Positions 1 to 16,639 of a stretch of 55,710 bases of DNA are shown here, piece by piece. Origin of the DNA: Pisciglobus halotolerans (lineage in GTDB: Bacteria > Bacillota > Bacilli > Lactobacillales > Carnobacteriaceae); assembly GCF_900113675.1 (NCBI RefSeq), contig NZ_FOQE01000012.1:1-55710 (forward strand), read 5' to 3'. Each line of letters opens with the position of its first letter. Within the stretch, counting starts at the first letter, position 1. The notes below the pieces were generated by a model. That model made no database searches and was not told the origin of the DNA. It saw only the letters and a list, made by a program, of their open reading frames with translations. The translations under genes were made by a program, and so were the position numbers.

Positions 1-295
1 TTTTTCATTTTCCCGTCGCCTCTATCAACCTCGCTTCACATCCTTTTAGTTGAGTTGCGCGAGGTAGAGTCTCGGGTAAAATTCTAAAGTCGCTCACATG
101 CGCAGGATGCTCTGTATCGCGCTTTTTCATTTTCCCGTCGCCTCTATCAACCTCGCTTCACATCCTTTTAGTTGAGCTGCGAAAGCTAGAAAGTTGTGCC
201 CAGCTTATCTTGTCCGCACGTCCACTCCGTTGGGACGCTTGCGTCAAGATTGCGCTGGTGCTCACTTTCTTTCGAGCTTTCTTCACATCCTGTTT
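1..295. repeat. GC-rich intergenic repeats downstream of smpB
   Basis: A 54-bp sequence at 1-54 recurs almost identically at 124-177, and both copies end in a TTTTAGTTGAG block. Read on the minus strand, the tract starts directly after the smpB stop codon with AGGATGTGAAG. It then shows GAAAGAAA, GAGCAC, GCAAGC, GTGCGGA and CAGCTCAACT in that order. The same blocks in the same order follow the gpmI stop at 14925-15109. The tract is more GC-rich than its surroundings and holds no convincing gene. The function is unknown; it could be transcribed as a 3' untranslated extension. Confidence 0.65.
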
Positions 296-754
296 TTATC
301 TGGCTTTTATGGCGCGGTCGATTTCTCTTTGTTGGGCTTTTCGTTTTAGGGTTTCTCGTTTGTCGTAGGATTTTTTCCCTTTGGCTAGGCCGATCAAAAC
401 TTTGGCGTAGCCGTCTTTGATATAAACTTTTAGCGGAACAAGTGTGTTTCCGCTTGTTTTGAGTTCGCCGACGAGTTTCATGATCTGTTTTTTATGCAGC
501 AACAGTTTTCTTGTTCTTACTGGATCATGGTTGAATTGGTTTCCTTGTTCATATGGGCTGATATGAACATTTTGCAAATATAATTCTCCATTACGAATGG
601 TTGCATAACCGTCTTTCAAGTTGATCCGCCCTGCACGAATCGATTTGATCTCAGTTCCTTGTAAAACTATGCCTGCCTCAAAAGTTTCCAAGATCGTGTA
701 ATCATGTCTGGCCTTACGATTTTGTGCAATCAGTTTGCCTGTTCCTTTTGGCAT
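296..754 (-). CDS. smpB: SsrA-binding protein SmpB
   Basis: SmpB binds the tRNA-like domain of tmRNA and delivers it to stalled ribosomes for trans-translation. The 152 residues are the normal length. The family core [15 protein letters not shown] lies near residues 28-42, and the basic C-terminal tail ([20 protein letters not shown]) normally enters the mRNA channel. The start is supported by GGGAGG 9 nt upstream. It begins 16 nt after rnr and is the last gene of the secG-est-rnr-smpB cluster. In Bacillus ssrA often follows, but I see no tmRNA gene here; the downstream DNA is repeats. Confidence 0.97.
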
Positions 755-8078: not shown

Positions 8079-8234
8079 GCCGCCCACTTGGTCACAGGTG
8101 ATAGGGCTGTGAACGAGTTGCAGCAGTTTACGACTCGACTTGGTCACAGGAGACGAGGCTGTGAACGAGTTGCAGCAGTTTACGACTCGACTTGGTCACA
8201 GAAGAAAGCTCTGTGAACAAGTTTTGATAGTTTA
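8079..8234. repeat. Three tandem 52-bp repeats upstream of serC
   Basis: Copies lie at about 8079-8130, 8131-8182 and 8183-8234; the outer two are degenerate. Each contains TGGTCACAG and CTGTGAAC about 10 nt apart, which form a small imperfect hairpin on either strand. They lie just ahead of the serC ribosome-binding site and so may be in its leader RNA. An adjacent palindrome-like AGCGAGCGCAGTGAGC tract lies at 8240-8258. Confidence 0.75.
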
Positions 8235-8398
8235 CAATAAAGCGAGCGCAGTGAGCTTTTGTTCCCTTTTCCTCTTTTGCTTTTTTTGTTTACATTCATC
8301 TATATCACGCCTGCTAAATAAAAGGAAAAACAGGCACTAAAAAACTGCATATTTGCTTATTCCATAGACAGATTGTTGCCCGAATCTTAACCATGTAA

Positions 8399-14773: not shown

Positions 14774-14924
14774 CTATTTATCATCGTTTTGTTAGGATTG
14801 AGAAGAAGTTAGCAAAGTTTTTGTCTTAGCCTTCTTCATATTGTCATGGCTCTTTCGATTATAATCGCTTAGAGACAGGATATACTTTGCCGGAACGGCA
14901 ACAGTGCTTCCATACGGCTTTGCT

Positions 14925-15109
14925 TTTCAAGCCTTCTCCTCAACCTGTTTTTGCTGTGACTCTTTCGGGGTCGCTCCGCATCCTTGGAGTTGAGCTGCGT
15001 TCCCCAGAGATCTCCGCCTAATTTGTAACATCCGCACAACCGCTTCGCTGGGTTGCTTGCGTTGTTCCTGCATTAGTGCTCGTTCTCTTTCGGGGTCGCT
15101 CCGCATCCT
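14925..15109. repeat. GC-rich intergenic repeat downstream of gpmI
   Basis: On the minus strand it begins immediately after the gpmI stop with AGGATGCGGAGCGA. It then shares the ordered blocks GAAAGA, GAGCAC, GCAAGC, GTGCGGA, CAGCTCAACT and a second GGATGCGGAGC with the tract after smpB. It contains a 59-codon minus-strand frame (14927-15106) that may be incidental. The function is unknown. Confidence 0.65.
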
Positions 15110-16638
15110 TTATTTTTGGATGAGGCTTTGTCCTGTCATTTCGGCTGGTTTTTTGACTCCTAGTAGGTCTAGCATAGTTGGTGCGATATCTGCCAAACGG
15201 CCATCTGTACGTAATGTAACGTCTTTTTTCGTTACGATAACAGGTACTGGCACTGTTGTATGTGCAGTATGCGGTTCACCAGTTGGTGTGATCATAGTAT
15301 CTGAGTTCCCATGGTCTGCAAAGATGATAGCATATCCACCTTTTTCAAGGATCGCATCTACAACATTTCCTAGATTTTCATCCACAGCTTCAATGGCTTT
15401 GATCGTTGGTTCTAGTTTACCAGAATGTCCAACCATGTCTGGGTTTGCGAAGTTTAAAATGATGGCGTCATTTTTACCTGCTTTGATGTCAGCAACTAAA
15501 GCTTCTCCTACTTCGTAAGCACTCATTTCTGGTTTCAAGTCGTATGTTTCGACTTTTGGAGATGGAATCAAGATCCGGTTTTCACCGTCGAATTCTTCAT
15601 TACGTCCACCATTCATAAAGAACGTTACGTGCGGATATTTTTCAGTTTCTGCAATCCGCAGTTGTGACAAGCCTTCATTTGATAATACTTCACCTAAAAC
15701 GTTTTTCAATTCGATTGGTGGGAAAGCAACTTCTGCATCAATGCTTGGGTTGTAAAGGGTCATAGTGACCAACTTGACATTGTGTGGACGTTCGCCACGG
15801 TCAAAGTGTTCCCACTCTTCGTCTGTAACAGCATTTGATAATTGGATAGCACGGTCTGGTCGGAAGTTGAAGAAAATGATTGCATCATTATCTTGAACAG
15901 TAGCGACTGGTTTACCATCTTTTTCAATCACTGTCGGCACGATGAATTCATCCATCTTGTCATCAGCGTAGCTTTGTTTAACAGCTTCAATAGCTGAAGC
16001 GGCTTTATTGCCTTCGCCATGGAAAATGGCATTATAAGCTTTTTCTACACGCTGCCAACGTTTGTCACGGTCCATTGCATAGAAACGACCTGAAACAGTA
16101 GCAATTTCTCCCATGTTCATTTGAGACAATGCTTTTTCTAATTGCTCAATGTAACCAAGACCAGAATCTGGTGCCACATCGCGTCCATCTGTGAAAGCAT
16201 GGATATAAACATTTTTTACGCCTCTATTTTTCGCAGTTGCGATAAGAGAGACCAAGTGATTGATATGACTGTGAACGCCTCCGTCTGAAACTAGTCCAAA
16301 CAAATGCAGATTTGAATCGTTGTCAACAACTTGATCCATTGCGCTTGCTAAAGCTTCATTTTGTTGAAATTCGCCTTCTTCGATTGCTTTATCGATTCGA
16401 GTCAGACTTTGGTAAACAATCCGTCCAGCACCAATATTCGTATGCCCTACTTCAGAATTGCCCATTTGTCCATCTGGAAGTCCAACATCTAAACCAGAAG
16501 CTTTTAAAGTTGCATGAGGAAAAGTTTCCATGTAACGGTTAAAGTTAGGTTTTTTGGATTGTGCAACAGCGTTTCCTGTCGTTTCTTCTCTCCAGCCGAA
16601 TCCATCAAGAATGATGATAGCTACTGGTTTATTACTCA

Positions 16639-16639
<1 letters not shown>
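15110..16639 (-). CDS. gpmI: Phosphoglycerate mutase, cofactor-independent (iPGM)
   Basis: GpmI is the manganese-dependent 2,3-bisphosphoglycerate-independent mutase of glycolysis. The 509 residues start with an alkaline-phosphatase-fold metal motif (ILDGFGW). The catalytic serine lies in [15 protein letters not shown] near residue 62, and the C-terminal metal cluster is ADHGNSD. The start overlaps the tpiA stop (TAATG), so translation is coupled. It is the last gene of the cggR-gap-pgk-tpiA-gpmI operon; eno follows with its own promoter. Confidence 0.97.

Follow-up and report, generated by a model that had tools for sequence, protein, structure and literature searches.

Repeats interspersed in bacterial genomes are usually seen as scattered, species-specific junk or as relatives of REP sequences. 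REP and BIME elements, which go with the RAYT proteins related to IS200/IS605, are 20-40 nt long, have a GTAG or CGTC foot and are partnered by a Y1 transposase. The BOX elements of streptococci are modular intergenic hairpins of the Lactobacillales assembled from A, B and C modules. Mycobacterial MIRU are tandem units that lie between genes in sense orientation and abut a stop codon; they are not known to have a conserved long covarying hairpin or unit types that can replace one another. In Enterococcus faecalis, EFAR elements were reportedly described by Venditti and co-workers in 2007. They are named among the MITEs of enterococci in excerpts of one paper (PMC3733652), and excerpts of another (PMC2267715) present the Efa-1 family, with 163 nt, 65 copies and a double hairpin, which is possibly the same family as EFAR. 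Neither a placement at stop codons, nor unit types that covary, nor growth next to the stop is mentioned in these excerpts, and no account of stop-codon hairpin cassettes was found in the open-licence papers searched.

The window, i.e. the whole 55,710-nt stretch of Pisciglobus halotolerans DNA analysed here, carries two arrays of a hairpin repeat, both on the minus strand. One abuts the stop codon (296-298) of smpB (296..754, -; an ORF matching the NCBIfam equivalog NF003843/TIGR00086) and consists, reading away from the stop, of AAAC (4 nt), a unit at 291-169, AA, a unit at 166-47 and, after another AA, 44 nt belonging to a third. Unit 1 (169..291, -; 123 nt) is of the GAAAGC..GCTTTC stem type and scores 72 bits (E 1e-18) against our structure model, this unit being one of the 29 from which the model was built. 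Unit 2 (47..166, -; 120 nt), of the GCGAGGT..ACCTCGC stem type, scores 86.5 bits (E 1e-22), and unit 3 (1..44, -), truncated because the contig stops at position 1, matches model positions 1-44 (E 2e-6). The second array directly abuts the stop codon of gpmI (15110..16639, -; ORF and TIGR01307) and precedes eno. Its full unit (14987..15109, -), of the GCGACCCC type, scores 56.5 bits (E 2e-14) and has the tail CAACTC in place of CAACTA; a truncated second unit with an approximate right border (14943..14984, -) was recognized from its sequence and repeat family D2. All three full units fold better than shuffled sequences. Unit 1 reaches -49.5 kcal/mol (z -5.0) and unit 2 -40.6 kcal/mol (z -4.3), each unequalled in 200 shuffles, and the gpmI unit (14985-15109) has z -3.0, with 1/200 shuffles as good.

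The original prediction had drawn attention to an ordered series of blocks behind smpB, and this series (AGGATGTGAAG, GAGCAC, GCAAGC, GTGCGGA, CAGCTCAACT) is indeed there, starting 4 nt after the stop codon and recurring in equal order directly at the stop of gpmI. The internal duplication noted at the same time in the smpB copy is a genuine repeat (68 nt, 94% identity, 122-nt spacing), which proves to be simply the tandem unit structure, the truncated unit 3 repeating the head of unit 2. The feature missed was the organization as modular tandem arrays of several unit types.

Further copies, which the original prediction called for, abound in the 2.44-Mb genome. The smpB array gave 60 BLAST matches (E<=10) and a three-unit query at least 87 (E<=1), many of these matches being partial; both counts include the window copies and come from the best 40 of 52-53 candidate regions scored. 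The repeat in the window is therefore not a matter of chance. Units span ~115-125 nt, from a head AGGATGYGGA to a tail GCARCTCAACTA, and the unit types of this genome are nearly equal in length (120, 122 and 123 nt) and intermixed in tandem arrays. Among the 34 arrays containing one or more heads and one or more tails, 31 start with a head and 26 finish in a head without a tail, i.e. in a truncated unit. Spacers are 1-7 nt between units and -1 to 12 nt, mostly 0-8, between gene and unit; gene-unit and unit-unit junctions are of one form, TA-N(mostly 0-8)-AGGATG. A peptide-coding unit was considered and rejected: frames from the ATG of the head vary by type and stop at varied places. Membership of an Rfam family was likewise rejected, no score exceeding the gathering threshold in the window (0 matches) or in 13 other loci, nine of which gave no match with E<=0.1 and four of which gave six matches, all below gathering, the best with E 0.15. 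The assembly breaks inside or beside array copies at window position 1 and in contigs C42, C67 and C85. Type-A units are in places followed or interrupted by another recurrent module (GCAAAACCGTTATCGGAAGCACTGTTGCCGTTCCGGCAAAGTG...CGATTAAAATCGCAAGAGCCATGACAA), at array ends in L093, L094, L099, L107, L109 and L110 and at ~14850-14925 (-) of the window, and a hairpin similar to it stands behind smpB in G017 (L170).

These units recall several known systems. Like REP and BIME, they are clustered intergenic palindromes at gene ends, but they measure 115-125 nt and end in AGGATGYGGA and GCARCTCAACTA instead of being 20-40 nt long with a GTAG or CGTC foot. Unlike MITEs, they are not bounded on the outside by 15-30 bp of terminal inverted repeat: between head AGGATGYG and tail CTCAACTA, only the basal GA/TC and GY/RC pairs and the variable arms are complementary. 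No clean target-site duplication is visible in comparison with array-free relatives because the 3′ flanks differ. MIRU share the tandem, sense, intergenic arrangement abutting a stop codon, and BOX has A-B-C modules of other sequences. By analogy, integron attC and CRISPR arrays are alike in having conserved junctions, variable interiors, one end that differs and another that has decayed; the present units, by contrast, occupy many loci, have as interior a hairpin of a few recurrent types and probably act at the level of RNA. Only one of the boxes RYYYAAC and GTTRRRY of attC is found on either strand. EFAR is an interspersed, intergenic, structured repeat of similar size from a related bacterial family, and may be an already described member of this hairpin family.

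Most units adopt one bulged hairpin, in which the stem letters can be wholly different yet complementary. The shared fold opens with a head of 10 nt that contributes four conserved basal pairs; a stem of 7 bp, a bulge of 4 nt and a stem of 6 bp come next, then a further internal-looped stem and the tail. RNAalifold, proposed at the outset as a check of folding conservation, confirmed a conserved fold with strong covariation: for 29 representatives of 109 distinct units (<80% identity, MFE below -28), it gave 15 pairs, and in 12 of these both partners vary. In a named 17-pair structure, 92.9% of the cells are paired, against 65.3% in shuffled alignments and 24-41% when the partners are slid, and the covariation score is 0.723 against 0.196; 0/500 shuffles reach either value. 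One of five covariation measures, that of further pair types, is not above the shuffles (235/500). When units are not filtered by folding, they form 32 clusters, two of them above -28 kcal/mol, whose own arms pair at 11.3 of 13 positions on average (lowest 4) compared with 6.9 when paired with the arm of another unit. At least 11 of 13 stem pairs are formed in 83/109 units, and some exchanges cut through a unit to leave mismatched arms (L146).

The hairpin has a sense bias. Among 1404 stem cells from 108/123 units, the other 15 with <9 Watson-Crick pairs having been dropped, G-U occurs 33 times and A-C 11 times, with other mismatches in 70 cells; in the 29 non-redundant units, G-U outnumbers A-C by 10 to 2. 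The sense MFE lies below the antisense MFE in 84/109 units and in 29/29 representatives, the latter having been selected by a sense-folding filter. The G-U excess over A-C and the stronger sense folding favour a sense RNA. Both the covariation and the strand counts overstate the certainty because related units are not independent.

Fixation at the stop codon, a central element of the original prediction, is borne out by the wider sample. The sample comprises 76 array starts in 22 genomes or records, of which 62 are placed -14..+12 nt from a stop codon in sense (that of an open frame of >=50 codons), as against 7.1% of 4000 random positions in own-genome loci; in the own genome, the figure is 24/30. 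Two pairs of loci (L080/L150 and L082/L138) share a 40-nt context and are probably one species entered twice, and without the copies the count is 60/74. The 14 starts off a stop were sorted by eye: six are array-internal behind a diverged tail, four stand behind a terminator T-run and four are unclear (L065, L086, L096, L113). Starts just behind a T-run, again by eye, are those of L083, L089, L111 and L116, and also of L195 and L240. Stops that coincide with the head or precede it are TAA in 42 cases and TAG in 17, and three TGA cases lie inside the element. Counting ORFs of >=150 aa with overlaps kept, TGA ends 27/158 in the own loci and 27/334 in the stretches from G010 and G014; the TGA deficit is the weaker because TGA use is only 8% in the latter.

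Core genes whose ends bear arrays include smpB, gpmI, rpoB, guaB, uvrA, leuS and mnmE. Some arrays are operon-internal, lying between rpoB and rpoC, gpmI and eno, and mnmE and the gene that we take to be mnmG. Because arrays sit inside operons, co-transcription with the upstream gene is implied, and to judge from this arrangement the arrays would be transcribed 3′ elements, as first proposed. A terminator finder, too permissive for the purpose, gave hits behind 11/24 arrays and in 126/300 random windows.

DNA matching recovered tandem units with nearly equal ends in 10/17 family relatives (11/18 including the own genome) and, among 11 further stretches, in contigs of Lacticaseibacillus, Ligilactobacillus and Carnobacterium; four of these stretches, from unrelated taxa, held no unit. 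The structure model found matches in 174/395 genomes of the order, in eight families (f1-f4, f6-f9; E<=1e-3), and in 55/398 genomes of the class (E<=1e-5), counts for which the best <=9 candidates were scored per genome, with rough E-values and without an outgroup control. A strict DNA pattern finds 15/395 where the model finds 174/395, so searches for exact sequence undercount. Tandem spacing of ~119-126 nt supports the matches in G003, G028, G039, G091, G122 and G204 and, outside the order, in G444, G534, G557, G631 and G671; nearly equal ends recur in two genomes of another order (L240, L242). Four g8 genomes (Streptococcus, at a guess) have a unit 3 nt behind the stop of a protein ending ...MAEANRAFAHFRW, presumably ribosomal protein S7. 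One genome of the same group, G186, has 81 model matches of ~108 nt, an expanded shorter variant.

The g22 genomes of family f2, which we guess to be Enterococcus-like, and G003 contain related hairpins with other end sequences. Six of seven g22 loci inspected are antisense and lie just upstream of ribosome-binding sites, the downstream genes being, by our assignment from their N-termini, menB-, ysxC- and ligA-like. These hairpins are related to our units by the structure model but differ in their ends and in their mostly antisense placement before ribosome-binding sites, and the stop-codon rule is therefore not universal. In g22 and other Bacilli there is a sister group, whose ends are AAGCGGAAC..GCAGCTAGAT or GCTGGACA (L244 in G524; L197-L206, L210, L215, L229).

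Turnover of units is seen when genomes are compared. At the smpB locus, inspected by eye over 320 nt, none of the 17 family relatives has a unit, and across 58.7 kb around smpB the structure model gave a single match in the 17 (8.6 bits, E 0.63). Matching regions were compared between two related genomes, G010 and G014, which are relatives of Carnobacterium jeotgali. The named locus L084, to which L066 of G011 is 100% identical over 1758 nt, matches the G010 and G014 loci at 81%. Between G010 and G014, orthologous gene ends bear different units. At the IKKYT locus, G014 has a unit between the stop and the unit common to G010 (47 of the first 52 nt), and at the FKMHRK locus, G010 has two units ahead of one shared with G014 (103/104 nt); at both loci, the units private to one species adjoin the stop codon. 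These may represent gain in one species or loss in the other. At the YTHVFD locus, 3/4 species have the same type of truncated unit in last place, and the first units differ. A site that we take to be P-II-like is empty in G010, and a manA-like site in G014 is reduced to a truncated unit.

Several complete units find their nearest counterpart behind another gene, with identities of 0.97 and 0.89 between species and 0.94 within G014; the flanking genes of G010 and G014 are 79-89% identical. Compared with complete units behind the same gene in the other species, the best identity is 0.37-0.63, and 0.90 at one locus; these values refer to complete units, and units that are shared but have a broken tail, as at FKMHRK, are left out. 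Identical neighbouring units are a sign of local duplication. Farther afield, the gpmI and mnmE ends carry arrays in different genera, and the glutathione reductase end carries them in different families (G000, G062), in each case with different units. The unit-free smpB loci of the relatives and the near-identical units at non-orthologous genes agree with the spread between operon ends that had been suggested from the window.

The explanation that we favour, and regard as rather probable, is that of a transcribed, structured 3′-UTR cassette that grows from the stop codon. Each unit would be a non-coding cassette of ~115-125 nt that folds as sense RNA into one long bulged hairpin. Cassettes stand in tandem directly behind the stop, presumably co-transcribed with the upstream gene, and the arrays change through gain, loss and exchange of whole units. 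Growth next to the stop may be the general rule, the last unit usually being truncated. As both kinds of junction share TA-N-AGGATG, the TA of the stop codon takes the place of a unit's own tail, which may have a mechanistic meaning. In the likeliest role, the structured RNA would lie at the edge of the ribosome as it terminates and would shield or tune the 3′ end of the mRNA, and units may also spread by recombination at the shared junction. One covarying hairpin architecture extends across the Lactobacillales and beyond, with near base-level precision at the stops of core genes, and its units behave as cassettes that can replace one another, in arrays that probably grow at one end. The family offers a testable case of how translation stops become the target of a non-coding element, and its naturally occurring, covarying RNA hairpins lend themselves to work on mRNA 3′-end control.

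The arrays could instead be ordinary 3′-UTR hairpins, inherited vertically and reshuffled by ectopic recombination and replication slippage. Their presence at equal gene ends in different genera and families speaks for such descent, as does the unit that G010 and G014 share almost letter for letter at one gene, and hairpins flanked by direct repeats are hotspots of deletion. Local duplication is indicated by the identical neighbours, and the shuffling could come from ectopic gene conversion, or from slippage at short repeats, without an element-specific enzyme. Vertical descent is harder to reconcile with an smpB array missing from every relative, with differing units on the stop-codon side at IKKYT and FKMHRK, and with identities of 0.97 and 0.89 at non-orthologous loci of species having flanking genes that are 79-89% identical. 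We consider this account possible, though doubtful as a whole; plain ectopic recombination is a serious rival for the shuffling and less so for the founding of new arrays.

Mobility of some kind would account for dispersed copies with no common ORF and for an smpB array confined to its own lineage, as expected of a selfish, non-autonomous MITE- or REP-like DNA element moved by a transposase in trans, for which the stop site is a tolerated insertion point; the classing of EFAR as a MITE in the excerpts of PMC3733652 points the same way. Such an element is unlikely here. The unit ends AGGATGYG and CTCAACTA do not form a pair of inverted repeats, and tolerance alone leaves the exact sense placement at the stop unexplained. 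RAYT/IS200 mobilization is not supported, the Y1 transposase (PF01797), the partner of REP, being found in 2/18 family genomes (G006, G017) and not in the own genome. No carriage by phage or plasmid was found: two array queries had no DNA-level match in 72,556 plasmid records, and two pattern matches in viral contigs contained no unit and look like chance. More improbable still are single-stranded DNA cassettes recombined as folded hairpins in the manner of integron attC, with the stop codon as entry site. They would explain a shape conserved with free sequence, short conserved ends, tandem cassettes and units that differ at one end, and the minus-strand tail GTTGAGY fits the consensus GTTRRRY, but the other end has no RYYYAAC partner, the units are scattered over many loci and not gathered on one platform, and the better folding of the sense strand and the excess of G-U over A-C are as expected of RNA.

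The favoured reading of a 3′-UTR cassette growing from the stop codon can be carried further, to RNA-hairpin cassettes found class-wide and inserted singly behind the terminating ribosome or at the transcript 3′ end. Entry would be at the TA of the stop or behind a terminator T-run, for example by RNA-primed copying or by a recombinase reading TA-AGGATG. We think this extension rather improbable; if it were true, each array would be a polarized record of past insertions and the family a new kind of transcribed genomic cassette.

Two minor observations may be added. In seven near-finished relatives (G005, G006, G007, G010, G012, G013 and G014), all listed units (E<=1e-8) lie on the arm opposite to the direction of dnaA, if the terminus is assumed to lie opposite dnaA, and all are in the leading-strand sense; 4/6 listed units of G004 conform and G003 does not, and there are few independent cases because many arrays are shared by descent. 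Elsewhere in the window, at 8086-8241, three tandem 52-nt repeats (100, 92 and 69%) stand at the start of the serC ORF, each bearing a TTGGTCACAG..CTGTGAAC motif, an arrangement that resembles a leader or operator array.
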